In this document: piece after piece, positions 18,402 through 33,740 of the stretch
Layout of the letters: every line of letters begins with the position of its first letter
Numbering within the stretch: the first letter of the stretch is position 1
Origin: Geobacter sp. FeAm09
Lineage (GTDB): Bacteria; Desulfobacterota; Desulfuromonadia; Geobacterales; Pseudopelobacteraceae
DNA: 64,000 bases
Direction: 5' to 3'
NCBI RefSeq assembly: GCF_008330225.1
Contig: NZ_CP042466.1
Coordinates: 2,722,001-2,786,000, forward strand
The notes under the pieces: generated by a model
Seen by the model: only the letters and a program-made list of their open reading frames with translations
What the model was told of the DNA's origin: nothing
The model's database searches: none
Translations under genes and position numbers: made by a program

Positions 18402-18693
18402 TCGCACATAATGCCGCCGCTGCGCCTGCCACGACCATGCTGTTCGCCCCGCCCCCCCTGCCCCATCTCCGCACGCAACCGGTCATTGCCACGACCGCTT
18501 GCCATTGCCTTGTCAATTTGACGACGTTTTATCAAAATGAAAGGCTTTCTATCAAATCGACACTGCCTGCGGCAGATATGGCAGCAATTTTCCCTTCCGG
18601 CCTGAAACGGCACATCCCGCGTTCCACGTTCCGCCGCCTGCGTTAAGCTGCGTCCCTCCCCCTGTTTACGACAGAATGTCGCTCCTTGGCATA

Positions 18694-18717
18694 CATTATG
18701 TATCGAAATACATAACG
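18694..18717. promoter_or_regulatory. ModE-like operator candidate A
   Basis: A dyad of 9-base halves separated by 6 bases. Read on the minus strand it is CGTTATGTA, TTTCGA, TACATAATG. The inner 20 bases are a perfect inverted repeat. Spacing and half-site fit the described ModE box (CGnTATATA-N6-TATATAnCG) with one central change in each half. Confidence 0.6.
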
Positions 18718-18767
18718 CCTGTTTGTTTGCACAGCGGTCTTTTTCACGCGGATAGTATTGTATCATA

Positions 18768-18791
18768 CGTTATATACTTACAAACATATCG
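18768..18791. promoter_or_regulatory. ModE-like operator candidate B
   Basis: CGTTATATA, spacer CTTACA, then AACATATCG. The left half is a perfect ModE half-site; the right half matches the inverted consensus at six of nine positions. It includes TATACT, a possible -10 box, so binding here would repress. It lies about 90 bases upstream of the first gene of the cluster. Confidence 0.6.
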
Positions 18792-18881
18792 CATGGTACG
18801 AGGGCAATCCCTGCCGTGAAATATCGCGGAACACTGCCCAACGTATGAGCATCCTGCAAATCTATTCACCATGGAGAGGTT

Positions 18882-19487
18882 ATGGCGATCAACGCCCATG
18901 AATTCGATGAGATTGCGCGAAATATCTTCGCACCTGCGTATCCGCTGCTGGCGGGACAGATCGTTTCTGCTACCGGCCTCTCAAAAGGTGCATGCCTCGA
19001 TGTCGGCAGCGGGGGCGGCTATCTGGGGCTGGCATTGGCCTCGGTGACCGACCTTCAGGTCTGGCTGCTCGACGAATGCGAAGACAACAGGAACATCGCC
19101 GAGGAAAACATCTGCCAAAGGGACCTGGCCGGCAGGGTCCGGGCGCTCACCGGGGATGTCCACGCCATCCCGCTTGGAGACGGGTCCATTGACCTTGTGG
19201 TCAGCAGGAGTTCGCTCTTTTTCTGGAAGAACCCGGATGTGGCCTTCAGGGAAATCAGGCGGGTGCTCGCTCCGGGAGGTTCGGCATATATCGGCGGCGG
19301 CTTCGGTTCAAAGGAGCTTCGCTGCCGTATTGAAGAGCAGATGTCCCGGCGTTCGCCCGACTGGCGGCCGAAGTTCGACGAAAGACAGGACGATGATTTC
19401 TTTGTCGCCCACCTCCGCTCCGCAGGCATCGAGGATTTCCGGATTACCAGGGATGAAAGCGGTTTCTGGATTTCATTCCCCAAATAA
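18882..19487 (+). CDS. Class I SAM-dependent methyltransferase, first gene of the cluster
   Basis: A 201-residue cytoplasmic enzyme with the Rossmann-type SAM fold: motif I LDVGSGGGYLGLALA (about residues 38-52), the acidic ribose-binding position in LLDEC, and a motif-III-like RVLAPGGSAYIGG. It belongs to the methyltransferase-11 group; the substrate is not evident. It starts the run that leads to FmdE and TonB, with two ModE-like dyads upstream. Such methyltransferases recur near FecBCD-type importers, where they may modify a metal ligand; that role is inference. Confidence 0.85.
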   Translation: MAINAHEFDEIARNIFAPAYPLLAGQIVSATGLSKGACLDVGSGGGYLGLALASVTDLQVWLLDECEDNRNIAEENICQRDLAGRVRALTGDVHAIPLGDGSIDLVVSRSSLFFWKNPDVAFREIRRVLAPGGSAYIGGGFGSKELRCRIEEQMSRRSPDWRPKFDERQDDDFFVAHLRSAGIEDFRITRDESGFWISFPK

Positions 19488-19555
19488 CCACCACGTGCCC
19501 CGCGGCAAATCTCCCCGCCCGGGCGGTATGCACGACAACCAGGCAAAGGATACCA

Positions 19556-20482
19556 GTGATGGAGCAACGGGAGAACAGACAGCCGGCCGGTATGCTCGAC
19601 AACGATAGCCACAGCTCGTCCCGGCACCTGCTCGACGGGACCGCGCAAACTCTCCGGGAGCTCACCGGCGGCGCCATCGCGGAATTACGGATCGAACGGG
19701 TCGTCGTGGGGGTCTTTTTCACCGGGGTCAAGCTGAGTAACGGTTGCGGCGGGGTCGCCTACACACCTCCCGCCCAGATCAAGCGGGCCGGCGTGGAGAT
19801 CCTGAAGGGCTCCTCGCAGGTCATCAAGGGGATGGAAGTGACGCGGGTGCTCGCGGGAGAGCTCGTCGGCCCCTTTGCCGAGATCGTCAGGCTCTCCACC
19901 ATCAACGCCCTTTCGGTGCCGTTCTTCAACAGCGGCCGCTATGCGGTGGATTCCGGCAACGATATCAGCGGCTTCGACCAGTTGTTCAGCGGCCGCCGCG
20001 TCTGCGTGGTGGGCGCGATCATACCGCTGCTCAAGCGCCTGAGGAGCCTGGGGACAGCGGAAACGGTCATCATCGATCAGAAGGAGGATACCACGTTCGA
20101 GGCGAGCCTCGGTAGGCGCGTATCCCTGGGACAAACGGCCGAGGCCCTGGCCCGCTGTGAAACCGCCGTGTTTACCGGGGCATCGATAGCCAACGGCTCG
20201 CTGCCCCGGCTGCTCGCCATGGTGCCGGCCGATGCGGCCATTGCGGTGGTCGGGCCGACCGCCGGGTTTATCCCGGACGAACTGTTCCGCCGCAATGTGG
20301 CGCTGGTCGGCACGGTAATCATGCACGACAGCGACCGGGCCCTGGATGTGCTTGCGGAAGGCGGGGGGGCCTACCAGCTCTTCGGAACCTGCATGCGAAA
20401 GATCAATATCCGTAACGTGAAACGGATACGTGAGCTGCATCTGGCAGGCAGCAATCAAACCAAAAGGAGAAATGCTTCATGA
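19556..20482 (+). CDS. DUF364 (putative heavy-metal chelation) family protein
   Basis: A 308-residue cytoplasmic protein matching the DUF4213/DUF364 type: an N-terminal enolase-like part (about 20-120) with GVKLSNGCGGVAYTP, then a Rossmann-like domain with VCVVGAIIPLLKRL and the GPTAGFIPDELFRRNV region. Relatives lie near metal and siderophore transport genes, and the family name records a suspected metal-binding role that is unproven. The GTG at 19556 or the ATG three bases on can start it after AAAGGA. It overlaps fmdE by 4 bases. Confidence 0.8.
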   Translation: MMEQRENRQPAGMLDNDSHSSSRHLLDGTAQTLRELTGGAIAELRIERVVVGVFFTGVKLSNGCGGVAYTPPAQIKRAGVEILKGSSQVIKGMEVTRVLAGELVGPFAEIVRLSTINALSVPFFNSGRYAVDSGNDISGFDQLFSGRRVCVVGAIIPLLKRLRSLGTAETVIIDQKEDTTFEASLGRRVSLGQTAEALARCETAVFTGASIANGSLPRLLAMVPADAAIAVVGPTAGFIPDELFRRNVALVGTVIMHDSDRALDVLAEGGGAYQLFGTCMRKINIRNVKRIRELHLAGSNQTKRRNAS

Positions 20483-21054
20483 GCGCGTTTTCGCAGGACG
20501 AGTATCGCAAACTGCTGGAGGAGGCGGTGAATTACCACGGCCACAAGTGCGCCGGTATCGAAAGCGGCACCAGGATGACCATGTGCGCCCTCGAGAGGGT
20601 CGGCATTGCAGACCCCAAGGGTGCCGACAGGAAGAAGCTTTTGGTGTTTGTCGAGGTGGATCGTTGTGCAACCGATGCCATAACGGCCCTGACCGGATGC
20701 CAGCCGGGCAAGCGCACCATGAAGGTACTCGATTACGGCAAGATGGCGGCGACCTTCGTCAATCTGGATACGGGCAAGGCGGTTCGCCTGGCCTCCAACA
20801 TGGGCAAGCAGGAGGCGCCCGACGGCACGAGCATCATGCCCGACTTCACCACCGCCACCGACGACGAGCTGTTCATCATCCAGGATGTGGAGGTGCCGCT
20901 GCGCCCGGAAGACCTGCCCGGCAAGCCGGTGCGCAAGGCGACCTGCTCAAAATGCGGCGAAAAGGTCATGGATGGCCGTGAGGTGGAGGTGGACGGCAGG
21001 CCGTTGTGCAAACCCTGTGCGGAGGACAGGACCTATTACCGCGCCATTGCCTGA
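20479..21054 (+). CDS. FmdE-family protein with C-terminal zinc ribbon
   Basis: A 191-residue protein of the FmdE (molybdenum formylmethanofuran dehydrogenase subunit E) family. It has the N-terminal YHGHKCAG motif (His20, His22, Cys24), VEVDRCATDAITALTGCQPGK (Cys63, Cys74) and DYGKMAATF, all FmdE hallmarks, and a C-terminal ribbon CxxC-x17-CxxC (Cys156, 159, 177, 180). Bacteria lack the methanofuran enzyme, so FmdE proteins here probably bind or deliver a metal. The start overlaps the DUF364 gene (ATGA), so the two are co-translated. Confidence 0.9.
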   Translation: MSAFSQDEYRKLLEEAVNYHGHKCAGIESGTRMTMCALERVGIADPKGADRKKLLVFVEVDRCATDAITALTGCQPGKRTMKVLDYGKMAATFVNLDTGKAVRLASNMGKQEAPDGTSIMPDFTTATDDELFIIQDVEVPLRPEDLPGKPVRKATCSKCGEKVMDGREVEVDGRPLCKPCAEDRTYYRAIA

Positions 21055-21132
21055 GTGCGGTTCGCTCCAATCGGCCATGCCGGCTGATTGAAACCAAACG
21101 CGAGGTGTTCGGATGAGAAGGACTTCAGAGGT

Positions 21133-21917
21133 ATGAGCACAGGTTGCAAATCATTCCTATTCTCGCTGTTGCTGCACCTTGTCCTTGTCGGCGGCGCGCT
21201 TTCGTTTGCCGGCATAAAGGTGCCGCAGGACAAACCGGTACTCATCGACTTTACGATCGAGAACGCACAGGTGGCGGAACAGGATATGAAAAGATCCGAT
21301 CCCGGCGGGACGCCGCCGCCGTCCCGTACCAAGCCCGCGCCGAAGACGGCGGCTACCGCGGCACCGCCGGTTCCCCCGCCCCCGAAGACGCTCCACCAGC
21401 CGGCCGTGGCCCAGGTTTCCCCGGAGGCGGCCCCCGTGGCCCCCCGGTTGCGTCACTGCCCGCACCGGTCCACGCCGCCGGAGCGGCTCAGGCCGCGCCG
21501 GCGGCCAGCAGTGCCGCTGTTGCTTCAAGCTCCTTCGGCGGCAGCCATGGGGGCAAGGCGACCACGGCATCGGAGGGCTCCGGTTCAGGCTCGCCCGGCA
21601 AAGATCCCAAGGGCGAAAGCACCGAAACGCTGCGGTCGCGTTACCTGAAAAAACATTTCGCCTACATCCGGGACCTGGTGGCCGGCAACATGAGGTACCC
21701 CGGCCTGGCGCGCCGCATGGGGTGGAGCGGCACGCTCCTGATCGAGTTCGTCGTTCAGAAGGATGGCTCGGCCGACATGGTGCGCATTGTCTCCAGCAGT
21801 GGCGTACCCCTGCTCGACAGGGACGCCCGGGAGACGGTATTGAAAAGCGCGCCGTTCCCCAAGCCCCCGGTCAGTGCCACGCTGAGGTTTCCCATGGAAT
21901 ACAAGCTCGAAAACTGA
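21133..21917 (+). CDS. tonB: TonB energy-transducing protein, split by a -1 frameshift at a C6 run
   Basis: The first frame encodes the membrane anchor (FLFSLLLHLVLVGGALSF) and the start of a Pro/Ala-rich periplasmic spacer. Near 21440-21445 (six C) coding shifts by one base, and the second frame continues with GGSHGG..., the C-terminal TonB domain (YLKKHFAYIRDLVAGNMRYP, LLIEFVVQKDGSADMVRIV, SSGVPLLDRDA) and stop at 21917. One extra C restores a 262-residue TonB. The gene is either phase-variable, programmed to frameshift, mutated or misread. Its product should energise the receptor at 25188. The start has only a weak GAGG site; an upstream TTG at 21088 is possible. Confidence 0.85.
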
Positions 21918-21988
21918 CATGGCCCGCCCCGCGTTTTTCCTTGCGCGCCCCTGACGGCGGGCGGCCGAAATCGAAGAGAGGCTACCGA

Positions 21989-23014
21989 ATGTATTCTAAA
22001 TTCCTGCTGTTTCTTTTGCTCAACCTGATCCTCGCGCCGTCACTCCACGCGCGGGAGATTACCGATATGGCCGGCCGCAGGGTCGTGGTGCCGGATGTCA
22101 TCAGACGCGTCTTCACCTCATCGCCGCCGGCCACGTACATGATGTACGCCCTGGACCCCACCCTGCTCGTGGGCAGCAACTACAGCGTCAAGGAGCAGGA
22201 CAAACGCTTCCTCCGGCCCGAGTTTACCCGCCTTCCGGTTGCCGGCGGGATGTTCGGCCAGGGACATACCGTCAACATGGAGACGCTTCTGGCCCTCAAG
22301 CCGGATATCGTGCTGAGCTGGAGCACCTGGGGCTCGAAGGCGGATGAGCTCTTTGTCGAACGGATGCGCAAGGCCGGCATACCGACCGTGTTCATAAAGC
22401 TCGACCGCCTCGAAGACTACCCCGACGCTTTCCGCTTCATGGGTGATCTGTTCGGCCGCAGGGAACGGGCAAAGCAGCTGGGCACGTACGCAAGCGAGAC
22501 CCTGCGGACCATGGCGGGCATTGCCGCCCGTATTCCCGAAAAGGAGCGGCTGAGGGTCTATTACGCGGAGGGGACGGACGGGCTTTCCACCGAAGGGGAA
22601 AAATCGTGGCATGCCCAGTTGATCCCCATGGCGGGGGGGAAAAACGTCCACAAGGGGGGGCAGTCCGACCAGGCAGGCATGGAGAAGGTCAGCATGGAAC
22701 AGGTGCTGATGTACAACCCGGACGTCATCCTCACCCATGACCGGATCTTTTACGCCTCCCTCGCCAAAGACCGGCGCTGGCACGATGTGCGGGCCGTTGC
22801 GGGAAAACGCGTCTATCTCATCCCCACGGTTCCCTTCAACTGGTTCGACCGCCCCCCTTCGTTCATGAGGCTCCTGGGCCTGAAGTGGCTTGCCGGCACC
22901 CTCTATCCGAAGCGCTATCCGCTGGATATCCGCACCGAAACCAGAAAATTCTACCGTTTGTTCCTCGGTGTGGAACTGAGCGAACGGGATATCCGGGAGA
23001 TACTCAACCGATGA
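21989..23014 (+). CDS. FecB/TroA-like periplasmic binding protein of an ABC importer
   Basis: A 341-residue protein with a signal peptide (about 1-21, ending LHA) and the two-lobed periplasmic-binding fold joined by a long helix: ITDMAGRRVVVPD at the start, LLALKPDIVLSW, and VLMYNPDVILTHD in the second lobe. It carries no lipobox. It would bind a chelated metal or oxyanion complex after the outer-membrane receptor and pass it to the permease at 23011, whose ATG overlaps its stop. A paralogue lies at 30351, sharing FNWFDRPPS and the last 60 residues closely. Confidence 0.92.
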   Translation: MYSKFLLFLLLNLILAPSLHAREITDMAGRRVVVPDVIRRVFTSSPPATYMMYALDPTLLVGSNYSVKEQDKRFLRPEFTRLPVAGGMFGQGHTVNMETLLALKPDIVLSWSTWGSKADELFVERMRKAGIPTVFIKLDRLEDYPDAFRFMGDLFGRRERAKQLGTYASETLRTMAGIAARIPEKERLRVYYAEGTDGLSTEGEKSWHAQLIPMAGGKNVHKGGQSDQAGMEKVSMEQVLMYNPDVILTHDRIFYASLAKDRRWHDVRAVAGKRVYLIPTVPFNWFDRPPSFMRLLGLKWLAGTLYPKRYPLDIRTETRKFYRLFLGVELSERDIREILNR

Positions 23015-24021
23015 AATCGCTGAAACTGCTCGTGTTCGCCCTGATTCTCGTCCTCGTCATGCTCGTGTCCCTTGCCCTGGGCAAATACCCGTTGCAGTTG
23101 ACGGAGATCGTCAACTTCCTCGCCTACCGTTTTTTCGGCTGGGGGACCTTCGATGCCGAACGCCTGCAACTGCTGCACAACCTGATCATCGAAATCAGGC
23201 TCCCGCGGATCATCAACGCGGCCCTGATCGGCGCGGCCCTGTCGGTGTCCGGGGCGGCCTACCAGGCGATCTTCATCAATCCGCTGGCCGACCCGAAGAT
23301 CCTGGGGGTGTTGGCCGGGGCTTCCTTCGGCGCCTCTCTCGGCATGGTCTTCCTGAAGACGTGGTACGCCGTGCAGGTCTCCACCCTGATCGGGGGCTTT
23401 GCCGCGGTGGGGATCACCATCGGCGTGGCCCGCCTCTACAGGATCAACAGCCCCATCATGCTGGTGCTGGGGGGGATCGTCAGCGAAGTGCTCTTCATGT
23501 CGCTCCTTTCCATAGTCAAATACATCTCCGACCCGTACAACCAACTCCCGGCCATCACCTACTGGCTTCTGGGCAACACCGCCATGGCCGACATGGATAT
23601 GGCCGTCAAATGCGGCACCCCGATCTGCCTCGGCATTATCTGCCTGATCTTTCTGGGGCGGCATCTCAACGTGCTCAGCATGGGGGACGAGGAGGCCCGG
23701 GCGCTCGGCGTCAACGTGGAGCTGGTCAGAATGACGGTGATCATCTGCGCCACCGTGGTCAGCACCCTGACGGTGGTCATGGCCGGCATGATCAACTGGG
23801 TCGGCCTGATCATCCCCCATATCGTCAGGATGATGATCGGCCCGGACAACGAGACGCTGATGCCGGCTTCCGTGCTGGTGGGGGCGTCGTATCTCGTGGT
23901 TGCCGACGACGTCTCCCGCCTGGCGTTCAATTTCGAGATTCCCATCGGCATCGTGACCTCACTGGTCGGAATCGTGTTCTTCTTGCTGGTGTTGAAAAAT
24001 GCCCAGAAAGGATGGCAGTGA
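23011..24021 (+). CDS. FecCD-family ABC transporter permease
   Basis: A 336-residue inner-membrane permease with about ten hydrophobic helices. The motif SVSGAAYQAIFINPLADPKILGVLAGASFGA (residues about 73-103) and the ATP-binding-protein docking region ...GDEEARALGVNVELVR are typical of BtuC/FecCD/MolB-type type II importers. It overlaps both neighbours by one to four bases. FecCD permeases import ferric siderophores, cobalamin, haem or molybdate (MolB); the neighbours point to molybdenum or tungsten, which is inference. Confidence 0.94.
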   Translation: MKSLKLLVFALILVLVMLVSLALGKYPLQLTEIVNFLAYRFFGWGTFDAERLQLLHNLIIEIRLPRIINAALIGAALSVSGAAYQAIFINPLADPKILGVLAGASFGASLGMVFLKTWYAVQVSTLIGGFAAVGITIGVARLYRINSPIMLVLGGIVSEVLFMSLLSIVKYISDPYNQLPAITYWLLGNTAMADMDMAVKCGTPICLGIICLIFLGRHLNVLSMGDEEARALGVNVELVRMTVIICATVVSTLTVVMAGMINWVGLIIPHIVRMMIGPDNETLMPASVLVGASYLVVADDVSRLAFNFEIPIGIVTSLVGIVFFLLVLKNAQKGWQ

Positions 24022-24821
24022 TGGCGCTCATCGATACGCAGCACCTTTCATTTTCCTATCGCCGCCAGGCAGTGCTGACGGATATCGACCTCTCCGTTGC
24101 CGAGGGGTCGGTGCTGGCCCTATTGGGCCCCAACGGCAGCGGCAAGACCACCCTGCTCAAGCTGATGACCGGCCTGCTGAAGCCGGTTCGCGGGCACGTC
24201 CGCCTGAACGACCGCGATATCCATACCATGCCGCAGCGGGAATTGGCCCGAAACCTGGCCTATGTGCCGCAGGTGCATCGCGAGACGTTTGCCTACCGGG
24301 TCGTGGATGTGGTGCTCATGGGCAGGATGCCGCACAAAAGTTTTTTTTCACGCTACGGCGCGGCGGACCGTCTGATAGCCCACGAGGCGCTGGAAAAGCT
24401 CGGCATAGCGCACCTGGCTGATCGTCCCTACACCGAGGTCAGCGGCGGCGAGCGCCAACTGGCCCTGATCGCCCGCGCCATGACCCAGGGGGCGCGGGCC
24501 TTCATCATGGACGAACCGACCAACGGCCTGGATTACGGCAACCAGGTCCGCCTGCTGGAACGCCTCAAGGCGCTTGCGGCGGACGGCTACACCTTTGTCT
24601 TTTCCACCCACCATCCCGATCACGCATTGGCCGTCGCGGACCGGGTGGTGATGATGCGCAAGGGCGTCATCACCCATGACGGCGTGGTCGGCGACACGGT
24701 CACCCAGGACAGCCTCATGGATTTGTACAACGTGGATGTACGCATGTATCCGGTGGAGAACGGGGTCTGCGTCTGCGTCCCGGCGGTGCGCCTGTGCGGT
24801 TGCGGGGGAAAGGCCCATTAG
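24021..24821 (+). CDS. ABC importer ATPase with cysteine-rich C-terminal tail
   Basis: A 266-residue FecE/BtuD-type ATPase: Walker A GPNGSGKT 36-43, Q-loop PQVHRE near 84, signature SGGER 141-145, Walker B FIMDEP 161-166, H-loop His197. The last 17 residues hold CVC at 250-252 and CGC at 259-261 and end in His. This tail is not part of the normal ATPase fold and looks like a metal-binding or redox-sensing appendix. The start overlaps the permease stop (TGATG). Confidence 0.93.
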   Translation: MALIDTQHLSFSYRRQAVLTDIDLSVAEGSVLALLGPNGSGKTTLLKLMTGLLKPVRGHVRLNDRDIHTMPQRELARNLAYVPQVHRETFAYRVVDVVLMGRMPHKSFFSRYGAADRLIAHEALEKLGIAHLADRPYTEVSGGERQLALIARAMTQGARAFIMDEPTNGLDYGNQVRLLERLKALAADGYTFVFSTHHPDHALAVADRVVMMRKGVITHDGVVGDTVTQDSLMDLYNVDVRMYPVENGVCVCVPAVRLCGCGGKAH

Positions 24822-24959
24822 CGCGGCGAGGGTGGCCGCTCAAACGTCCCTGACGGACAAGGACGACCGCAAGGGACGGCAGCCAGGCCCGGCAGTTCGT
24901 TCTTTCGTATCAGTTCAATCTCTGGTTTGAACGGCACAACAGCTGCTAGAAGCGGCAAT

Positions 24960-24983
24960 CGTTATATAACATAGCGCATATCG
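24960..24983. promoter_or_regulatory. ModE-like operator candidate C
   Basis: CGTTATATA, spacer ACATAG, then CGCATATCG. The left half is identical to that of site B, and the right half shares CATATCG with it. It lies about 205 bases before the receptor gene. Confidence 0.6.
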
Positions 24984-25066
24984 ACCATCTGCCGGACAGA
25001 GCACCAAAGACCGGATGGTCACCTGTACGTTTCACCAAGCTCCACAGAAGTCTCCTTCTTGTGATG

Positions 25067-25093
25067 GGGGGATGTCCGCATCCCCCGTTTTTT
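25067..25093 (+). terminator. Intrinsic terminator between the ATPase and the receptor gene
   Basis: GGGGGATG (25067-25074), loop TCCG, CATCCCCC (25079-25086), then G and six T. It either ends the importer operon or, because it stands downstream of site C, acts as an attenuator of receptor transcription. Confidence 0.85.
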
Positions 25094-25187
25094 CCGTAAC
25101 GGCGCAGGAAAGCGGCACCCGAGGCTTTGGGACAACCAGATAAACCCGCGTGGTTTAAATACAAATGAAGGGAGAACAGGCAATTTT

Positions 25188-27248
25188 ATGAAACGAAGCG
25201 CATGCAGGACGGTAAGCAACGGGATCGTGGGCGCAGCGGCGGCCATGTGTGTCATGGCGGCTTTCGCCATGCCGGTATCGGCTGAAGACAAGGAGGTGAA
25301 AAACGACGAAAACGGCAACGTGTTCACCCTGGGCAAGGTTGAGGTGGGGGCAAAGGCCGACAAGCAGAAAAACTCCGTGGTTTCAACGGTAGGCGAAGAG
25401 GAGATGCTGCAGTTCGACACAAAGAATATCGGCCAGGCCGCCAACCTGATCTCCGGCGTCACCGCATCGGTGTCCGGCAAACGGGGGGAATCAGGCTTTA
25501 ACGTCCGCGGCTTTGACAACAGGCGCACCCCCATCTACCTGGACGGCATTCCGCTCTATGTCCCCTATGACGGCTACATCGATACGGGGCGCTTCATGAC
25601 CTACGATCTGTCGGAAATAGACATTTCAAAAGGTTTCGCCTCGGTGCTCTACGGCCCCAACACCCTGGGCGGCGCGGTAAACATGGTGTCCAAGCGACCG
25701 ACAAAGACGTTTGAAGGCAATGCCGGGGCCGGCTACACCTCGGGCGACGCCTACCATGCCTTTGCCAACCTGGGCACCAACCAGAAATCGTGGTACCTGC
25801 AAGGGGGCGGATCATGGGTAGATGTCCATTCCTTCACACTCTCCGATGATTTCAAAGCGACAGCGCTGGAAAGTGGCGACAGGCGCAAGAACTCCTACCA
25901 GCGCGACGGCAAGGCTTCCATCAAGGTCGGCTTTACCCCGAACAGCACCGACGAGTATGCGCTCAGCTACATCTACCAGCATGGCGAAAAGGGGGTCCCC
26001 CCCTATGCCGGCAGCAATAGCAACTCCATATCGAAAGCCACGTATTGGCAGTGGCCGTGGTGGGATAAACAGAGCGTGTACCTGAGCAGCAATACCGCCA
26101 TTGCAGAGAAAAGTTATGTCAAAACACGCATCTACTACGACCAATTCAAAAACTCGCTGAATCAATATGCTTCAGACTATGCAACATTATTAACAGGCAG
26201 TTATTCGCCCAGCAGGTATGACGACTACACGGTCGGGACCTCCATTGAGGCAGGAACAACCCTTATACCGTACAATACCCTTAAGATGGCGTTCCATTTC
26301 AAGGATGACGTACATCGCGACGTCACAACCGTAACGCCAGAGTCGCGCTACGAGGATCGCACCTACTCCGTAGGAGTCGAGGACACCATTGATTTCACCA
26401 AAAAGCTTTCTGCTGTTGTGGGAATCGGATATGACAAGCTCACGGGCGTCGAGGCGCACAAGTACGATTCAAACAGCAAAGCCTTCCTTGACATCCCGCT
26501 TGCCGACAGAGATGCGCTAAGCCCTCAGGCAACTTTGTTTTACACATACTCCGACACCGGGAAAATACACGCCTCCGTTGCCATGAAAACCCGCTTCCCT
26601 TCCATCAAGGAGAGAACGACGGCCAGCATTGACGGTTCCAACCTTCCCAACCCCGGTTTGAAACCGGAAACATCGATCAACTATGAACTCGGCGTTCAGG
26701 ATACCGTCGTCAACCTGGTCAAGGTCAAATCAAATTTCTTTGTTGACGCCATCAGCGACTATATCGCATCCGTCAACACCGGCATCCTGGTAACCAATTA
26801 CAACAACAAAAAAGTAAATCAGACCCAGAATAGAAACACTGGAAGGGTCAACCGGTACGGATATGAATTCGAAGCGTTGGCGCCAATTGGCGACACGGCA
26901 GAAGCAGGTTTCAACTACACGTTCATCTACAATGACAATTTGAGCAGTTCCGACAACATTACCGATATTCCCAAACACAAGCTGTTTGCCTACGGCAAAG
27001 TGTCTCCCATAAAACAGCTGAGTGTTCTTGCCTCGGTGGAGTACGACACCAAACGCTTCAGCAGCACCGATGGTTCAACCACTGCAAGAGAATTTGTCGT
27101 CGTCAACACCAAGGTCGGCTATGAAGTGATAAAAGACGGCACGCTGGAAGCGGGGATCAACAACCTGCTCGACAGGAACTATTCCTACAGCGACGGCTAC
27201 CCGGAACCGGGCAGGACCTATTTCGTCCAGGCAAGGTATCGGTTCTAG
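25188..27248 (+). CDS. TonB-dependent outer-membrane receptor
   Basis: A 686-residue receptor: signal peptide about 1-32, a TonB-box-like segment FTLGKVEVGA near 46-55, plug domain about 60-170 (QAANLISGVTAS, GFDNRRTPIYLDGIPL, YGPNTLGGAVNMVSKRP) and a 22-strand barrel ending in Phe (QARYRF). It imports a scarce chelate into the periplasm using energy from TonB. The flanking importer, TonB and FmdE genes make it the outer gate of the same system. The second half (from about 26150) is slightly less GC-rich, as is common for surface-exposed barrel segments. The ATG follows GAAGGGAG. Confidence 0.94.
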   Translation: MKRSACRTVSNGIVGAAAAMCVMAAFAMPVSAEDKEVKNDENGNVFTLGKVEVGAKADKQKNSVVSTVGEEEMLQFDTKNIGQAANLISGVTASVSGKRGESGFNVRGFDNRRTPIYLDGIPLYVPYDGYIDTGRFMTYDLSEIDISKGFASVLYGPNTLGGAVNMVSKRPTKTFEGNAGAGYTSGDAYHAFANLGTNQKSWYLQGGGSWVDVHSFTLSDDFKATALESGDRRKNSYQRDGKASIKVGFTPNSTDEYALSYIYQHGEKGVPPYAGSNSNSISKATYWQWPWWDKQSVYLSSNTAIAEKSYVKTRIYYDQFKNSLNQYASDYATLLTGSYSPSRYDDYTVGTSIEAGTTLIPYNTLKMAFHFKDDVHRDVTTVTPESRYEDRTYSVGVEDTIDFTKKLSAVVGIGYDKLTGVEAHKYDSNSKAFLDIPLADRDALSPQATLFYTYSDTGKIHASVAMKTRFPSIKERTTASIDGSNLPNPGLKPETSINYELGVQDTVVNLVKVKSNFFVDAISDYIASVNTGILVTNYNNKKVNQTQNRNTGRVNRYGYEFEALAPIGDTAEAGFNYTFIYNDNLSSSDNITDIPKHKLFAYGKVSPIKQLSVLASVEYDTKRFSSTDGSTTAREFVVVNTKVGYEVIKDGTLEAGINNLLDRNYSYSDGYPEPGRTYFVQARYRF

Positions 27249-27297
27249 ACGGTACCACGGAGTCTGAACGGATTTTCGCCATCTTCCGCAAAAAAAT

Positions 27298-27323
27298 ACG
27301 CCCCGGTCCGCCGGGGCGTTTCA
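27298..27323. terminator. Hairpin, probable bidirectional terminator after the receptor gene
   Basis: ACGCCCCGG pairs with CCGGGGCGT across a TCCG loop. It is followed on the plus strand by only a short TTT and preceded by a run of A, so termination is better in the minus direction, where no gene is read. Confidence 0.55.
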
Positions 27324-27356
27324 CCATCCACCGAGCAACTATGACAAGGACAGAAC

Positions 27357-28166
27357 ATGAACGGACATACCATAGACTGGAACCATGCCTGGAAACAGGC
27401 CAAGGGAGAACTCGCGCGCATCGACAACCGGGAATTCTGGAACAAGCGGGCGCCGTCGTTCTCCAGCCATGTGCGGGAAACGGATTACGAAAAGCATTTT
27501 TTGCGGATGATGCCGGTCGATCCGTCCTGGAGCGTGCTCGATGTGGGATGTGCGGCCGGGACCCTGGCCATTCCGCTGGCAAAGAGCGTCAGGTCGGTGA
27601 CCGCACTCGATCTTTCGCCCGTCATGATCGATCTGCTGCGCCAGCGCTGCACCGAGTCGGCAATCACCAACATCACCCCCCTCGTCGGCAGATGGGAGGA
27701 CGACTGGGACAGCCTGGGCATCGGGGAATACGATGTCGCCATCGCCTCGCGGTCCCTGGTAATGGACGACCTTGCCGAAGGCATTGCCAAGCTGAACCGG
27801 GCGGCACGGCGGATGGTCTGCATCTCCGCCCTGGTGGGCGACGGCCCCTTCGACCGGCGGCTCTACGACGCCGTGGGGCGGCCGCTCAAAATGGGACCCG
27901 ATTATATCTATGTGTACAACTACCTGTACCAGATGGGCATATACGCGGATGTCGGCTTCATCGGCACCACGGAATGGAAGAACTATGAAAGCCCGGCCGA
28001 GGCGCTGGAAAAGATGCTCTGGATGCTGGACGGGATTACGCCGGAAGAAGAACGCCGGCTCAAGGAGTATCTCGACGCCCAACTGGTCAGGCATGATGGT
28101 GGATGGCGCCTGCCGGAGCCAAAGGTGGTGCGCTGGGCCTTCATCAGGTGGGAAAAGGAGGCCTGA
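27357..28166 (+). CDS. Class I SAM-dependent methyltransferase (second of the cluster)
   Basis: A 269-residue cytoplasmic enzyme. The N-terminus WNHAWKQ...WNKRAPSFSSHV is a helical cap; the SAM fold follows with motif I LDVGCAAGTLAIPLA (about residues 62-76), VTALDLSPVMIDLL and SRSLVMDDL. It differs from the methyltransferase at 18882. Downstream, the radical SAM gene starts 2 bases after its stop, so the two are one transcript. A substrate cannot be named; a metal-binding small molecule or cofactor is a guess from context. Confidence 0.86.
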   Translation: MNGHTIDWNHAWKQAKGELARIDNREFWNKRAPSFSSHVRETDYEKHFLRMMPVDPSWSVLDVGCAAGTLAIPLAKSVRSVTALDLSPVMIDLLRQRCTESAITNITPLVGRWEDDWDSLGIGEYDVAIASRSLVMDDLAEGIAKLNRAARRMVCISALVGDGPFDRRLYDAVGRPLKMGPDYIYVYNYLYQMGIYADVGFIGTTEWKNYESPAEALEKMLWMLDGITPEEERRLKEYLDAQLVRHDGGWRLPEPKVVRWAFIRWEKEA

Positions 28167-28168
28167 CC

Positions 28169-29152
28169 ATGCGGTGCAACTTCTGCGAATGGCGCTGTGA
28201 ACTGGGTGCCGATACCTATGGCCGATGCCGGATGTATTACGCGGACGGTCAGGCCATCAGGGAACGCTTTCCGGGAATGTGGTGTTCCTACGAGGTGGGA
28301 AAGATCGAAGCGGTCCCCTTTTACCATGCATATCCCGGAAGCCGGTGCCTGACCACGGGCACGAGCAGTTGCAACTTTTCCTGCACCTACTGTTCGAATG
28401 CCTTCATTGCCAAACAAAACCCCGCCGCCATGCAGGGGAGCATGTTTCATTTCTCGGCGCAACGCATGGTGGGGATGGCGCTGAAACTGGGGTGCCGCAG
28501 TATTGTCTTTAATGTGAACGAACCGACCGTGTCCCTCCCCACCCTCCGGGAATTGGCGACAGAAGCGGCAGCGGCGGGCATCCCCCTCGGTTGCCTGACC
28601 AACGGCTACACGACCCCGGAAGCCACCGAACTGCTGGCCACCATCTTCACGTTCTTCAACATCAGCCTGAAAGGGTTGGCCGACGACTTCAACCGGAGCC
28701 ATATCGGCATCCCGTCGGTTGATCCAATCCTGCGCACCATCACCCGGTTGGCGGGAACGCATCATGTCGAGGTGACAACGCCGGTCATTCAGGGGGCCAA
28801 TGACCATGAGCTCGACGATATCGCGCGCTTTATCGCCGCTGTTGATCCCGAAATCCCGTGGCACGTGCTCCGTCTGCTCCCCGAAGACGAGATGAAGGAC
28901 GCGGTCTATCCCGATATCGTGCGTATCAACGAGACGTTGCACACGGCAAGAAGGCACCTGCCCTATGTCTATTTTCACAATTTCGTCGGCTCCGACTGGG
29001 TGAACACCCTCTGCCCGGAGTGTGCCGCGCCGGCCATGGAACGTTTCAGCCTGGGGTGCGGGGGGGACCAGCTGCAACGTTTCTCATGCCCCGACGGGAA
29101 CTGCCCATCCTGTGGTCACACCATCAAACTACTGAGGGACGAAACGCCATGA
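28169..29152 (+). CDS. Radical SAM enzyme, AmmeMemoRadiSam/PflA-like
   Basis: A 327-residue radical SAM protein with the cluster motif CNFSCTYC (Cys68, Cys72, Cys75). The N-terminus CNFCEWRCELG...GRC (Cys3, 6, 10, 20) resembles the extra cysteine segment of the AmmeMemoRadiSam activating enzymes. The C-terminus has CPEC and CPSC pairs that could hold zinc or another cluster. The product activates or modifies an unknown target, perhaps the protein encoded by the next gene, which overlaps by 4 bases. Target assignment is inference. Confidence 0.88.
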   Translation: MRCNFCEWRCELGADTYGRCRMYYADGQAIRERFPGMWCSYEVGKIEAVPFYHAYPGSRCLTTGTSSCNFSCTYCSNAFIAKQNPAAMQGSMFHFSAQRMVGMALKLGCRSIVFNVNEPTVSLPTLRELATEAAAAGIPLGCLTNGYTTPEATELLATIFTFFNISLKGLADDFNRSHIGIPSVDPILRTITRLAGTHHVEVTTPVIQGANDHELDDIARFIAAVDPEIPWHVLRLLPEDEMKDAVYPDIVRINETLHTARRHLPYVYFHNFVGSDWVNTLCPECAAPAMERFSLGCGGDQLQRFSCPDGNCPSCGHTIKLLRDETP

Positions 29153-30318
29153 AACCGACGACGCACGACCACCACGCAAGCCTGGCCATAATAGACACCC
29201 GGGAGTGGCAGAACCGGTTTGACCTGAGAACCGGCGACAAGTCGGGCGAGCAGGGCCCCCTGGTCGAGATGATGCAGCAGGTGCTGAGCCGGCACCACTA
29301 CCCTGGCGATCTCCATGCCGACAGCAACCGCTGGGTAACCGACATCGCCCTGGACCTGGCGGCCGGCTACCAACCGCGCTTCACCTTCCTGACCTATGCC
29401 CAACAGTATTTTGCCAGCAGGGTCGGCCCCATGGATGTCGCGGAACGCCGCCGGATGATGGCGGAACTGTTCCGCGAAGTGGAACGTTTTCTCGGCGAAT
29501 CCGGATGTATGCCGGTAATCGTCGGACGGGGTGGCGTGACGTCCCTCAACGGCATCATCGACCTGAGCATGCTCGACGGAATCGGCATTTCCACCCATTG
29601 GTCGGCCAGATACGCCGGACTGCACGAACCAAGCGGGGCGGACCTGAAACGGCTGCGCGAGGAACCGGGCCTGGACAGGATCGTGACCAGGAGCGAGTTC
29701 CTGGAACTGTTCGATGGTTCCCCCGGGGACGGGAGACTGCTCCCCGATTACCTGCTGGTCGCCCGGCGGGGCTATGCCTTCAGGGCACTGGGGTGCACCA
29801 TGCGGAAACCGGTCATGATCCCGGATGCCGCCGACCACATCCCGCTTTCCAGCCCTCTGGGGACGGCAGCCGACATAACCGCCATCCGGGGGCTCGTCGA
29901 ACGGGGGTTGCAACAGGGACACCGGGTCGCTCTCATCGTCCTCGAGGGGGTGGGCAGCGACGATTTCCTGCTGCCCTTCACCCCCTGCGGGAACAACCGG
30001 GCCTGGTTTTGTTACGAACCGGGCGACGCCCAGTTTCTGGCCATTACCACCGGGCAACACCGGATATTCGACTACCCGCCGGGCTACCTGTTTCACGATG
30101 AAGACACCAGGGAGAAGGAATACCCGCTTTCCGGGTACTTCAAGAAAATACCGGCCGGGACCATCGGCGCCGAATTTTCCGGCAGGAGCATCGCCGTGGG
30201 CAACAAAAGCATGGCCATGCACATGGTAGCCGGTGCGGACCTGTGTGTGGAGTGCTTTGCCAGAAATTATTACAACCAGGGGACGCTGGGGGTGATCCAC
30301 CGCCAGGATAAGCCGTGA
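29149..30318 (+). CDS. Unrecognised 389-residue protein of the metal cluster
   Basis: I do not recognise the family. It is cytoplasmic (no signal peptide or membrane helix). Features visible are an N-terminal GDKSGEQGPLVEMMQQVLSRHH, a central VIVGRGGVTSLNGIIDLS, a Rossmann-like HRVALIVLEGVGSDDF near residue 265, and Cys in CGNNRAW and CVECFARNYY near the C-terminus. Its ATG overlaps the radical SAM stop, and the second binding-protein gene follows after 32 bases. It may be the substrate or partner of the radical SAM enzyme. Confidence 0.75.
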   Translation: MKPTTHDHHASLAIIDTREWQNRFDLRTGDKSGEQGPLVEMMQQVLSRHHYPGDLHADSNRWVTDIALDLAAGYQPRFTFLTYAQQYFASRVGPMDVAERRRMMAELFREVERFLGESGCMPVIVGRGGVTSLNGIIDLSMLDGIGISTHWSARYAGLHEPSGADLKRLREEPGLDRIVTRSEFLELFDGSPGDGRLLPDYLLVARRGYAFRALGCTMRKPVMIPDAADHIPLSSPLGTAADITAIRGLVERGLQQGHRVALIVLEGVGSDDFLLPFTPCGNNRAWFCYEPGDAQFLAITTGQHRIFDYPPGYLFHDEDTREKEYPLSGYFKKIPAGTIGAEFSGRSIAVGNKSMAMHMVAGADLCVECFARNYYNQGTLGVIHRQDKP

Positions 30319-30350
30319 CGTCCCCCGTTATCCGTATTGGAGGTTATTAC

Positions 30351-31382
30351 ATGCTGCGTTTTGCCCTTACTATCGTCATGGTGCTTTCCCTTTGCGCCAG
30401 CGCATATTCGCGCACGATCACCGACATGACGGGGAGGCGGGTGGCCATCCCCGACCGGATCGAACGGGCCGTTGCCCTGTCGCCGCCGGCTACCTACCTG
30501 ATCTATACGGTCGCTCCCGAGCTTCTGGCCGGGCTCAACTTTCCGTTATGGGAGAGCGAAAAGATCTTCACGCCGGAGCGGTTCAGAAAGCTCCCGGTCA
30601 TCGGCGGCATGGTCGGCGAAGGGAGGAACCTCAACCTGGAGGTGCTGCTCAGGATCAAGCCGGACGTGGCCTTTCTCTGGGAACGGAACAGGGGCCAATT
30701 CAGTGCGGTCAACAGGGAATATGAACGAATCCTCAAGCCGCTGGGCATACCGCTGGTCTATGTGTACATCGACTCGCTGAAGGATTATCCCGCAGCGCTT
30801 TTGTTCATGGGAGACGTGCTGGGCAGGAAAGAGCGGGCGGCACGGCTTCACCGTTACGCGGTCAACGCGCTGCACAAGACGGAGCGGGCAGTGGCGGCCC
30901 TGCCGGAGGGCAGACGGGTGCCGGTCTATTATGCCGAAGGTATCGACGGACTCTCCACCGAGGGCGAAGGCTCCATGCACACGGAGCTCATTCAGCTGAG
31001 CGGCGGCAAAAACGCCTGCCGTCTGAAACCGACCAGCCCCAACGGCATGGAGCGGATCTCCATGGAGCAGCTTCTGGTGTACGATCCCGAGGTGATCCTG
31101 GTGAAGGAGCGGATCTGCTACGAACGGATTCTGAAGGATGCGCGCTGGAGACAACTGCGGGCCGTCCGCAGCAAAAAGGTCTATCTCATCCCCCATGTGC
31201 CGTTCAACTGGTTCGACCGGCCGCCCTCCTACATGCGGCTGTTGGGCGTCCAGTGGCTGACCAACCTCCTCCACCCAACCCGGTACCCGGCCGATATGAT
31301 GAAGGAAACCAGGGAGTTTTACAGTTTGTTCCTCGGCAAGGAACTCTCGGACCGGGAAACCCGCGACGTGTTGCAACCGTGA
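30351..31382 (+). CDS. Second FecB-like periplasmic binding protein
   Basis: A 343-residue paralogue of the protein at 21989, with signal peptide about 1-20, ITDMTGRRVAIPD, VLLRIKPDVAFLWE and VPFNWFDRPPSYMRLLG. It lacks its own permease and ATPase genes here, so it probably shares those at 23011-24821. Two binding proteins for one importer suggest two ligand forms (for example two chelates or molybdate versus tungstate complexes); that is inference. The ATG follows TTGGAGG. Confidence 0.92.
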   Translation: MLRFALTIVMVLSLCASAYSRTITDMTGRRVAIPDRIERAVALSPPATYLIYTVAPELLAGLNFPLWESEKIFTPERFRKLPVIGGMVGEGRNLNLEVLLRIKPDVAFLWERNRGQFSAVNREYERILKPLGIPLVYVYIDSLKDYPAALLFMGDVLGRKERAARLHRYAVNALHKTERAVAALPEGRRVPVYYAEGIDGLSTEGEGSMHTELIQLSGGKNACRLKPTSPNGMERISMEQLLVYDPEVILVKERICYERILKDARWRQLRAVRSKKVYLIPHVPFNWFDRPPSYMRLLGVQWLTNLLHPTRYPADMMKETREFYSLFLGKELSDRETRDVLQP

Positions 31383-31510
31383 TTCCCTTTGCGGATCGTG
31401 GCGCCGGATGCTATTTTAGCCGCTATACGGAACGGGCGACGGTACGCCGGCCGATCGCCCGGCCTGAAGCGGAGCATGTATCGGAGCGGGATGAAAAGGG
31501 GGGGAAGACT

Positions 31511-32341
31511 ATGGGAAATATGGCAACGATGCTGTTGTGCCTGGCGTTCATGGCCGGTTGCGCAACACTGGAAAAGCACGACACGACACCGGTCACCAAG
31601 GGAAGAGTTCAGGGCTACCTGCCCTCCGGCTCCCTGCCCGATATGGTGGCACTGATCCCGCCGCCGCCCGCCGCCGGTTCAACCGCGTTTGCGCTCGACC
31701 AGGAAACCGGCCGCGCCAGTTTCCCCCTGCGGGATTCGGCCCGCTGGGCGCTGGCCGTCCAGGATGCCGACCTCTCCTTTCCGGCCGCGGCAGAGAGTTT
31801 TTCCTGCGTCCTGAACGCCCGCATCAGCGAACAGGATACCCCCCGCCTCTTCCGTCTGCTGCGCCGTACCCTGGCCGATGCGGGCAACGCCGTTTCCCGG
31901 CCGAAGGATACCTATAAGCGCCCCCGCCCCTTCATGGTGAACGGAGAACGCATCTGCACCCCGGACTACGAGCAGCGTTTGCGCACCAGCGGTTCCTACC
32001 CGTCGGGGCACACCACGGCCGGTTGGGCCTGGGCGCTCATCCTGAGCGAGATCGCGCCGGAACGGGCCGAGGCGATCCTGGTTCGGGGAAGGGCCTATGG
32101 CCAGAGCCGGATCGTGTGCAACGTGCACTGGCTGAGCGACGTGAATGAAGGGCGCACCGTTGCCGCGGCGGTGGTGGCCCGGCTCCATACCGATCCCGCC
32201 TTCCGGGCGGATCTGGAGGCCGCCAGGGCCGAGCTTGCCGCGGTCAGGGCCAAAGGGCTGGCGCCTGTCCGCGACTGTCGCGCCGAGGCCGAGGCGCTGG
32301 CCCTGTCCCAGGTTCCCGGGCCGCAGCCGCCATCCCACTAG
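31511..32341 (+). CDS. Class A acid phosphatase lipoprotein (PAP2/PhoN type)
   Basis: A 276-residue exported enzyme. The lipobox FMAGC puts the lipid-bearing Cys at residue 17. The three phosphatase motifs are present: KDTYKRPRP (KxxxxxxRP-like), SYPSGHTT, and SRIVCNVHWLSDVNEG. This fold is shared with vanadium haloperoxidases and binds phosphate-like oxyanions such as vanadate, molybdate and tungstate. It would hydrolyse phosphate esters in the periplasm; in this cluster it may act on a phospho-ligand or as an oxyanion binder, which is speculation. The ATG at 31511 follows GGGGAAG. Confidence 0.88.
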   Translation: MGNMATMLLCLAFMAGCATLEKHDTTPVTKGRVQGYLPSGSLPDMVALIPPPPAAGSTAFALDQETGRASFPLRDSARWALAVQDADLSFPAAAESFSCVLNARISEQDTPRLFRLLRRTLADAGNAVSRPKDTYKRPRPFMVNGERICTPDYEQRLRTSGSYPSGHTTAGWAWALILSEIAPERAEAILVRGRAYGQSRIVCNVHWLSDVNEGRTVAAAVVARLHTDPAFRADLEAARAELAAVRAKGLAPVRDCRAEAEALALSQVPGPQPPSH

Positions 32342-32440
32342 TGCCCGGAACCGCCACCGAAACCATCTGGCTCAAAACGGCCGGCATTGCCGAAAACCCA
32401 CGACAGATCACACGTTCCAACTACCAAAGGGGGAAACGCC

Positions 32441-32953
32441 ATGAATCACACCGAAAATACGAACCCGGAAACCAAACCCCATGGCAAGCATAAATACGGC
32501 CCGGAATACATGTCCCACGAACTGAAGGTGACCGGACGCGTGGAGAGGCCGCTTTGCTTGAGTGTCTCCGATCTGCGGGAGATGGCCGCCCTGGAGATCG
32601 AGGCGCTGCCCATCATCTGCGGCAGCGGCACGGAGAAGGGGACCATCAAGAGCTACCGCGGGGTATTGCTGCAGGAAATCCTGGACCGGGCGGCCGTAAT
32701 CATCACGGAACATCATGCACCCAACAGGCTGTACCTCAAACTCACGTCCAACGACGGCTATATGGCGCTCTTCAGCTGGCAGGAGATCAACAACACCGCG
32801 GTCGGCGACAAGGCGATCGTGGTGTTCGAGCGGGAGGGGCAGCCCCTGGACGAGAACGAGGGCGAATTCGCCTTTGTCTCGGCCAACGACGACCGCCCCG
32901 GCCCGCGCCGCATGCGCTACCTGGGACAGATCGAGGTGTGCGAGGCCGTCTGA
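32441..32953 (+). CDS. Cytoplasmic molybdopterin-binding domain protein (sulfite oxidase fold)
   Basis: A 170-residue protein consisting of one oxidoreductase molybdopterin-binding domain. The element LEIEALPIICGSG (Cys60) corresponds to the region that supplies the Mo-ligating cysteine in sulfite oxidase relatives, followed by YRGVLLQEIL and a C-terminal MRYLGQIEV. There is no signal peptide and no dimerisation domain. It may be a Moco carrier, storage protein or stand-alone enzyme. A GGGGGAAA site precedes the ATG. It links the cluster to molybdenum. Confidence 0.82.
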   Translation: MNHTENTNPETKPHGKHKYGPEYMSHELKVTGRVERPLCLSVSDLREMAALEIEALPIICGSGTEKGTIKSYRGVLLQEILDRAAVIITEHHAPNRLYLKLTSNDGYMALFSWQEINNTAVGDKAIVVFEREGQPLDENEGEFAFVSANDDRPGPRRMRYLGQIEVCEAV

Positions 32954-32963
32954 TCGCCCCTGC

Positions 32964-33003
32964 CCCGGTATGGCCGCTCCCTCACGCGGGGGGCCATGCC
33001 GGG
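32964..33003. terminator. Hairpin between convergent genes
   Basis: CCCGGTATGGCC (32964-32975) pairs with GGCCATGCCGGG (32992-33003), one wobble, loop 16. There is no T-run on either side. It could still separate the two convergent transcripts. Confidence 0.4.
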
Positions 33004-33011
33004 CCGGTTCG

Positions 33012-33407
33012 TCAGGGTTGCTCTATCAACTCGATGAACTCTTCCCGCTTGATTTCATCGACGATCCAGGAGCAGGCGGCAAAGCAGCGGTCCCGGGTCG
33101 CGCCGGAGACGATCGCCAGCAGCACCGAATCGCAGGCGCCGATGGTCCCGAGGCGGTGGACGATCAGGACCTGATTGAGCTTAAACCGCTCCTCTGCCCG
33201 GCGGGCAAGTGCGGCGAGCCGTTCGTCGGCATCGGCGACGAGCGGTTTAAGCTCGACGGCGGCAAAGTTCGGGACCTGCTTTCCCGGCCGTTTCACCCGG
33301 CCGTGGTGCATGACCACCGTGCCGGTGCTGTCGGTTTCACGCTCGAGAAAAGCGCGGTAGAGCCCCAGGTGGTCAAACTCCTCTGTGGAACAGAATGCGG
33401 TAATCAC
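33012..33407 (-). CDS. moaE: MoaE-like protein (molybdopterin synthase large-subunit family), divergent C-terminus
   Basis: A 131-residue MoaE-family protein with FAAVELKPLVADADERLAALA, FKLNQVLIVHRLGTIGACDSVLLAIVSGATRD and CFAACSWIVDEIKREE, which match the MoaE core. Canonical MoaE continues as KTRAPFWKKE and contributes a second active-site Lys; here the protein ends REEFIELIEQP and that Lys is absent. It may be a regulatory or non-catalytic MoaE paralogue, or use another residue. The GTG start has an AAGGAG site. It is convergent with the molybdopterin-domain gene. Confidence 0.8.
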   Translation of the reverse strand: MITAFCSTEEFDHLGLYRAFLERETDSTGTVVMHHGRVKRPGKQVPNFAAVELKPLVADADERLAALARRAEERFKLNQVLIVHRLGTIGACDSVLLAIVSGATRDRCFAACSWIVDEIKREEFIELIEQP

Positions 33408-33740
33408 GTGCGTACACTCCTTGTTGTATAAAATCGGTCATGGGCGGACCGGTATCAGGTTCAAGGCAGCATCGGCGGCCCGGCCTTTTCCCCGTTCTCC
33501 CGGGTCTGCCGACAATGATCCGCAATTTATCAGAGTTTTACCGATTCTGCACCCACTCCGTACGCCTCCCCCGTCATCCAACCGGATCATCCGTGCGCTT
33601 TCCGGGATTTTTCACAAAAAAATCCCCGTAGCACGGAGGGATAGCTACGGGGCGCCTTATGGGCAATTCCCATCATGAATAGCGTTATGAATGGATATCC
33701 TTAGCCCGGAACAGACCTTGCGGGCGAAAAAACCGGCGAA
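33408..33740. other. Gap between moaE and a small membrane-protein gene
   Basis: Contains a minus-strand terminator at 33615-33652 and the moaE ribosome-binding site near 33415. I see no further gene in the remaining 200 bases. Confidence 0.4.
33615..33652 (-). terminator. Intrinsic terminator of the small membrane-protein gene
   Basis: CCCCGTAGC (33624-33632) pairs with GCTACGGGG (33644-33652) across an 11-base loop; read on the minus strand it is followed by TTTTTTT. It lies about 90 bases after the stop of the gene at 33741. Confidence 0.8.

Follow-up and report, generated by a model that had tools for sequence, protein, structure and literature searches.

A ModE-associated gene cluster of Geobacter sp. 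FeAm09 as a candidate TonB-dependent uptake and processing system for molybdenum or tungsten complexes

A 64,000-nucleotide stretch of the Geobacter sp. FeAm09 genome (hereafter the window; bases 2722001-2786000 of a single-contig genome of 4.10 Mb) contains, between 18.7 and 33.4 kb, a gene cluster in which a TonB-dependent receptor and a FecCD-type importer are combined with a series of putative ligand enzymes and preceded by ModE-type operators. We propose that this cluster is probably a ModE-controlled acquisition module, which imports a complex of molybdenum or tungsten (Mo/W) in a TonB-dependent manner and then processes the ligand in the cytoplasm. Import of such a complex through the receptor is our best inference; the substrate, the transport and every enzymatic step are read from gene content and context. 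An initial annotation of the same sequence had already suggested that Mo or W, perhaps chelated, enters by an outer-membrane route and that enzymes of the cluster make or strip the ligand. That suggestion is supported as still the best reading, but the arguments first offered for it, FmdE by its name and the FecCD importer by analogy, were weaker and are replaced here by evidence from operators, genomic neighbourhoods and homology to MolA.

ModE-type operators and the molybdenum regulon

The three ModE-like dyads of the initial annotation were recovered as perfect matches to a dyad of two 8-bp arms with 8 bp between them (consensus CRTTATRT-N8-RYATAWYG):

18694..18717, ModE-type operator, CATTATGTATCGAAATACATAACG, perfect match to the 8-8-8 dyad, matrix score 20.4
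18768..18791, ModE-type operator, CGTTATATACTTACAAACATATCG, perfect match, matrix score 23.5
24960..24983, ModE-type operator upstream of the receptor gene, CGTTATATAACATAGCGCATATCG, perfect match, matrix score 19.1

The E. coli modA operator, CGTTATATTGTCGCCTACATAACG in the E. coli genome record, has the same form as these dyads, and a site described for G. sulfurreducens shares their spacing (PMC545781). Only six distinct perfect sites occur in the 4.1-Mb genome, three of them in the cluster, two near nif and mod genes at 1392.5 kb and one at 955.5 kb. When up to three mismatches were allowed, the window gave 11 matches, as compared to 3.8 +/- 2.2 in shuffled sequences (largest 10). The operator pattern was first drawn from the window's own sites, and its significance therefore rests on a matrix trained solely on sites outside the cluster and on spacing controls. 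With this matrix, at a reporting threshold of 12, the three dyads were the only sites in the 64 kb, where 0.1 would be expected. Over 40 loci there were 17 ModE-type dyads at a spacing of 8, against 13 for 12 other spacings combined, or about 1 each.

The remainder of the genome points in the same direction. Full-length ModE, with a helix-turn-helix (HTH) and two Mop/TOBE domains, is encoded twice (loci L032 and L033), and family assignments were confirmed for both copies as well as for ModD, ModA, ModB, Mop and NifH. Weaker ModE-type sites precede modD-modABC (1399390) and a MoeA-like gene (421212), and other strong sites also precede Mop and Mo-storage genes; for example, a gene with its end at 958.7 kb has a match of 2e-144 to Mo storage protein beta. 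Two cluster genes have paralogues within this regulon: that of the methyltransferase MT1 (63% identical) lies behind two ModE sites adjoining nifH-modE-modDABC in L032, and that of the Oxidored_molyb protein (55% identical) is at the nifH/mod locus. At the level of sequence, control of the cluster by Mo/W and its coherence as a module appear well supported, and ModE would be expected to bind the cluster operators.

Both modE loci carry further genes. L032 (genome 1389200-1403000) combines nifH, nifX, modE, modD and modABC with the MT1 and Oxidored_molyb paralogues and ModE sites, and has in addition a CobW-type GTPase with an ABC-like ATPase, a pair found again in L053 and L072. L033 (genome 2273000-2292900) contains full-length ModE, a porin, TonB-ExbD-ExbB and a two-partner secretion transporter, along with six ModE-type sites, a small ModE-like HTH protein and a 2234-aa exoprotein of the filamentous-haemagglutinin type; it is possibly a Mo-regulated secreted protein system.

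Gene content and distribution of the module

Every component named in the initial annotation was located and confirmed with Pfam. The genes form two plus-strand blocks of closely spaced genes (18882-24821 and 25188-32953), and ModE-type dyads lie ahead of each:

18882..19487, +, MT1, S-adenosylmethionine (SAM) methyltransferase, Pfam Methyltransf_11 5.8e-19
19556..20482, +, DUF4213-DUF364 protein (DUF364), PF04016 9.8e-35 and PF13938 6.8e-12
20479..21054, +, FmdE with a zf-dskA_traR zinc finger, PF02663 1.8e-29 and PF01258 1.7e-09
21133..21917, +, TonB with TonB_C, PF03544 2e-15, frame broken once
21989..23014, +, SBP1, MolA-like class III periplasmic binding protein, Peripla_BP_2, signal-peptide-like N-terminus
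23011..24021, +, FecCD permease, PF01032 4.9e-77
24021..24821, +, ABC ATPase, PF00005 6e-31
25188..27248, +, TonB-dependent receptor of 686 aa, PF00593 4.1e-28 and PF07715 4.7e-20
27357..28166, +, MT2, SAM methyltransferase, PF13649 1.4e-11
28169..29152, +, radical SAM enzyme (rSAM), PF04055 8.3e-17
29149..30318, +, UNK, a 389-aa protein without a Pfam or NCBIfam family
30351..31382, +, SBP2, second MolA-like binding protein, Peripla_BP_2
31511..32341, +, secreted PAP2 acid phosphatase, PF01569 5.8e-20, lipoprotein-like N-terminus
32441..32953, +, Oxidored_molyb domain protein without a signal peptide, PF00174 1.9e-08
33012..33407, -, MoaE, PF02391 5e-21

It is uncertain whether MoaE, a convergent neighbour, belongs to the cluster. 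The DUF4213-DUF364 protein is the sole copy above cut-off in the genome. A strong terminator-like hairpin at 25067-25086 (+), between the third ModE-type site and the receptor start, might possibly mark the end of the first gene block or act as an attenuator.

Both binding proteins had 4pag as their best match in the structure database (1.1e-83 for SBP1 and 3.1e-70 for SBP2), and the nearest of the characterised structures listed was MolA of H. influenzae (3psa; 1.6e-22 and 2e-20, respectively), ahead of BtuF (8e-12 for SBP1). The cluster encodes both a receptor with plug and barrel and a TonB; ExbBD is not among its genes. The N-terminal anchor of TonB and its C-terminal TonB_C domain are in different frames, with the change near C5/C6 runs at 21431-21445, which could be a sequencing or assembly error, a real break or phase variation.

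The initial annotation had asked whether these families co-occur elsewhere, and indeed the combination recurs across 41 genomes, both inside and outside of the Desulfuromonadia. Relatives of UNK were present in 9 of the 146 sampled genomes of the host class (its own genome counted) and in 40 named contigs, which include Desulfuromonadia, Syntrophus, Syntrophorhabdus, Desulfotignum, Desulfobacula and metagenome-assembled genomes (MAGs) of Geobacter; further carriers are Sporomusa, Megamonas, Selenomonadales, Spirochaetia and one acidobacterial MAG. None was found on plasmids. Counted as neighbours over the 41 genomes, as lower bounds because several contigs are short, were UNK (41), rSAM (39), a binding protein (35), FecCD (29), the ABC ATPase (28), the TonB receptor (21), FmdE (18), MT2 (17), DUF364 (15), MT1 (14), a TrmO-like protein (9) and ExbB (9; largest cluster). 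Thus rSAM and UNK are a conserved pair. The outer-membrane parts vary between carriers: in L088, from the presumably single-membrane Syntrophomonadaceae, the order SBP-FecCD-ABC-rSAM-UNK is retained and receptor and TonB were not seen, and Sporomusa, which has an outer membrane, carries the receptor, ExbBD and TonB.

The operators recur along with the genes. In homologous loci the dyads precede the receptor (L063, L066, L074), rSAM (L063, L066), ABC/FmdE (L060, L074), DUF364 (L059), a Mop gene ahead of rSAM (L064) and ModE itself (L053, L069), and in a relative of the same genus (L042) four dyads lie upstream of ExbB-ExbD-rSAM-UNK-DUF364-FmdE. Molybdenum genes are also frequent neighbours. For example, Mo-type nifHDK and modCBADE adjoin the module in L036/L053, and other loci include a second modE-modA locus (L050), a modA-type gene (L059), MoeA (L063, L064), Mop (L064, L076), MOT1 (L062, L081), ModD (L041, L070) and a small ModE (L069). 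Altogether, about 13 of the 41 loci have a Mo gene nearby, compared with about 5 by chance if a genome has roughly 25 Mo genes, which is our own estimate. Signal-peptide-like proteins that join Oxidored_molyb and tetrapyrrole methylase domains are encoded near the cluster in two genomes (L056:2610-4358 and L074:14178-15953).

The rSAM-UNK pair and the secreted phosphatases

The stop of rSAM overlaps the start of UNK. The rSAM protein has a CX3CX2C motif and extra cysteines near both ends, invariant in 8 homologues. Its closest named family is AmmeMemoRadiSam (TIGR04337), but membership was rejected at a score of 125.6 against a cut-off of 220, and its partner in the cluster is UNK rather than AMMECR1 or Memo. 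In four loci (L038, L054, L083 and L084, with Pfam support in L083) an rSAM paralogue carries a C-terminal domain resembling a binding protein, which we read as a cytoplasmic ligand holder; from this fusion, the rSAM family would act on an imported ligand. An apparent rSAM-UNK fusion in L073 was discarded as a gene-calling artefact, its upstream part having been read in the wrong frame. In L088 UNK appears, by eye, to form a fusion with a TrmO-like part that carries an FmdE-like tail, and a TrmO-FmdE fusion was confirmed in L068.

UNK belongs to a family of proteins of about 380 aa, of which 38 relatives were aligned, and a search of its profile against PDB sequences returned nothing credible. 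Its predicted structure (predicted local distance difference test, pLDDT, 87.7; predicted template-modelling score, pTM, 0.90) contains a region, residues 9-255, that resembles phosphonoacetate hydrolase and nucleotide pyrophosphatase/phosphodiesterase (NPP) enzymes (Foldseek probability 1.00, E 4.5e-6, TM 0.37-0.40). Superposition on 1ei6 (E 4.5e-6) gave Z 10.4 and 3.7 A over 218 residues. The core is therefore predicted to adopt an alkaline-phosphatase superfamily fold, as a partial match, and the rest of UNK is unmatched. Motifs in UNK led us to suspect that the phosphatase fold is circularly permuted, but the C-terminal half did not fold when modelled alone (pLDDT 42.7).

Secreted phosphatases of unrelated families lie near UNK in 14 of the 41 loci. 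They are of the PAP2 type in the window, L054 and L074, alkaline phosphatase-like (by eye) in L061, L087 and L089, calcineurin-like in L073, L090 and L092, purple-acid-like in L076, L077, L085 and L086, and fn3/PAP-like in L066. The host genome has five PAP2 and five Metallophos matches and none to Alk_phosphatase. Phosphatases that are few genome-wide and yet repeatedly and independently recruited near UNK suggest that dephosphorylation is needed. A secreted deaminase-like protein also recurs (L060, L062, L066, L083-L085).

Two other kinds of neighbour deserve mention. Secreted esterases, of a kind used on ester-bearing siderophores, share an operon with UNK (L054:7883-9514 and L038:17931-end), which hints that the ligand bears an ester. 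In L079, L080, L081 and L085, UNK is followed immediately or at a short distance by large multihaem cytochromes, of which one has MtrC/MtrF-like domains; these may possibly serve a redox step on the complex.

Proposed route and competing explanations

In the route that we favour, scarcity of molybdate (or tungstate) would lead ModE to release two promoters, one under the operators at 18694/18768 and the other under that at 24960. The TonB-driven receptor would then move a Mo/W complex over the outer membrane, a secreted phosphatase would trim a phosphate group from the ligand, and the two MolA-like binding proteins would hand the complex to the FecCD-ABC importer. In the cytoplasm, rSAM and UNK, aided by DUF364, FmdE and the methyltransferases, may bind and alter the ligand, and this change would free the metal for nitrogenase and enzymes with the molybdenum cofactor (Moco). 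Several observations do not sit easily with this route. Free molybdate crosses porins, so that a receptor would be needed only for the putative Mo/W complex. The TonB gene of the window is frame-broken. The usual catalytic phosphatase motifs, for the nucleophile and the two-metal ligands, are not evident in the UNK alignments, and the UNK profile found no sequence-level match among phosphodiesterases, in a comparison set that held some spurious frames. The loci of Sporomusa, Desulfobacula and Spirochaetia yielded no ModE-type sites. In two of the Sporomusa genomes the opposite strand nearby carries a gene of the Fur family and, as judged by eye, a Znu-like importer. Finally, MolA itself is a low-affinity binder of molybdate for which a partner receptor is not mentioned (PMC4031551).

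What the enzymes do with the ligand admits more than one answer. The cluster might build its own molybdophore, with rSAM, UNK, DUF364, the methyltransferases and elsewhere the TrmO-like protein, to be secreted, loaded with Mo/W and re-imported. The several SAM-using enzymes side by side would suit such a pathway, as would an amino-acid-permease-like gene that L069 and L074 carry within or next to the cluster and the proposal that DUF364 helps to make pterin, flavin or siderophore-like chelators (PMC2954201). We nevertheless consider self-made molybdophore unlikely: no dedicated exporter was seen in the window cluster, the genome has no non-ribosomal peptide synthetase (NRPS) condensation domain or IucA/IucC protein, and the fusion of rSAM to a binding-protein domain better fits processing of an imported ligand than synthesis. 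On balance, processing of the ligand is in our view about twice as likely as its synthesis. Alternatively, the imported complex could be Moco or a pterin-Mo fragment shed by other anaerobes, with the phosphatase stripping the molybdopterin phosphate and the cytoplasmic enzymes recycling metal or pterin. The recurrent secreted phosphatases and deaminase-like proteins fit this idea, and so do the Oxidored_molyb proteins (window, paralogous locus, L056, L074), the neighbouring MoeA, MoaE and Mop, the anaerobe lineages of the carriers and a DUF364 cleft predicted to suit pterins (PMC2954201). However, the phosphatases could serve phosphate supply, nothing observed points directly to a pterin ligand and no described Moco import was found in the literature searched, which makes this specific source quite unlikely. 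A broader proposal, tentative and on balance unlikely, is a dedicated, horizontally spread anaerobe system in which a phosphorylated organic Mo/W complex, possibly Moco or a molybdophore, is imported via the TonB receptor and dephosphorylated outside of the cytoplasm; a radical SAM reaction, together with a new partner protein of alkaline-phosphatase fold, would release the metal.

The identity of the metal was weighed in the same manner. Service to tungsten or vanadium instead of molybdenum gains something from the fact that ModE-type regulators can respond to tungstate as well, and DUF364 genes have been reported to neighbour genes for tungstate and vanadium (PMC2954201). Yet the delta subunit of V/Fe-only nitrogenase (AnfG/VnfG) was found in none of the 9 carrier genomes and the adjacent nitrogenase in L036 is of the Mo type; as a whole this option is rather improbable, with tungsten retaining some probability. 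Less probable still is that the cluster is a normal importer of cobalamin, haem or a ferric siderophore whose ModE-like sites are incidental. The FecCD, binding-protein and receptor families do mostly serve these substrates, and by name the top NCBIfam models are those for B12, haem and siderophores, but all of them score far below their cut-offs. Identity as BtuCDF was rejected (BtuF 59 against 234, BtuC at most 177 against 334-461, BtuD 119 against 281). Neither a cobalamin nor a Moco riboswitch was detected in the window or in 21 homologous loci, and the window has no match to the delta-proteobacterial Fur box consensus at three or fewer mismatches. No signs were found of iron or cobalamin control, which had been named beforehand as the outcome opposed to Mo/W control. 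Conversely, independent genomes share the ModE-type operators and the Mo neighbours, and together with the full-length ModE of the host these argue for regulation by Mo/W.

Among known systems, MolBCA of H. influenzae (HI1470-1472) shares with the cluster a FecCD-type importer and a MolA-homologous binding protein; it is reported to carry molybdate at low affinity and to be repressed by it (PMC4031551). The TonB receptor, radical SAM enzyme, UNK, DUF364, FmdE and methyltransferases of the cluster are not reported there. FecA-FecBCDE, BtuB-BtuFCD and a lanthanide metallophore system (PMC11317620) likewise combine receptor, TonB, class III binding protein and FecCD importer to take up a metal complex via the receptor, but ModE control, a Mo neighbourhood and ligand enzymes are not known for TonB-dependent siderophore or metallophore uptake. 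ModABC/ModE has regulator, operator and physiological demand in common with the cluster, whereas ModABC transports free molybdate, uses a permease and a binding protein of another family and lacks an outer-membrane component. In the open-access literature searched, a weak negative, no TonB-dependent Mo uptake or TonB receptor for Mo is described. The parts are thus of known kinds, while their combination, its regulator and the rSAM-UNK pair appear to be new. Structure and genomic context have been used to connect DUF364 with the transport of heavy metals and with chelators that resemble pterins or siderophores, and genes for tungstate, vanadium and molybdate were noted among its neighbours (PMC2954201). 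The present gene set extends this hint into a regulated module that gives DUF364, FmdE and the UNK family a physiological context. The module touches the question of how, in sulfidic or organic-rich surroundings, anaerobes supply their nitrogenase and Moco enzymes with scarce Mo, and its receptor, two binding proteins and enzyme pair are defined targets for deletion and assay. It also raises the possibility that importers of the MolA type act on complexed Mo instead of bare molybdate.

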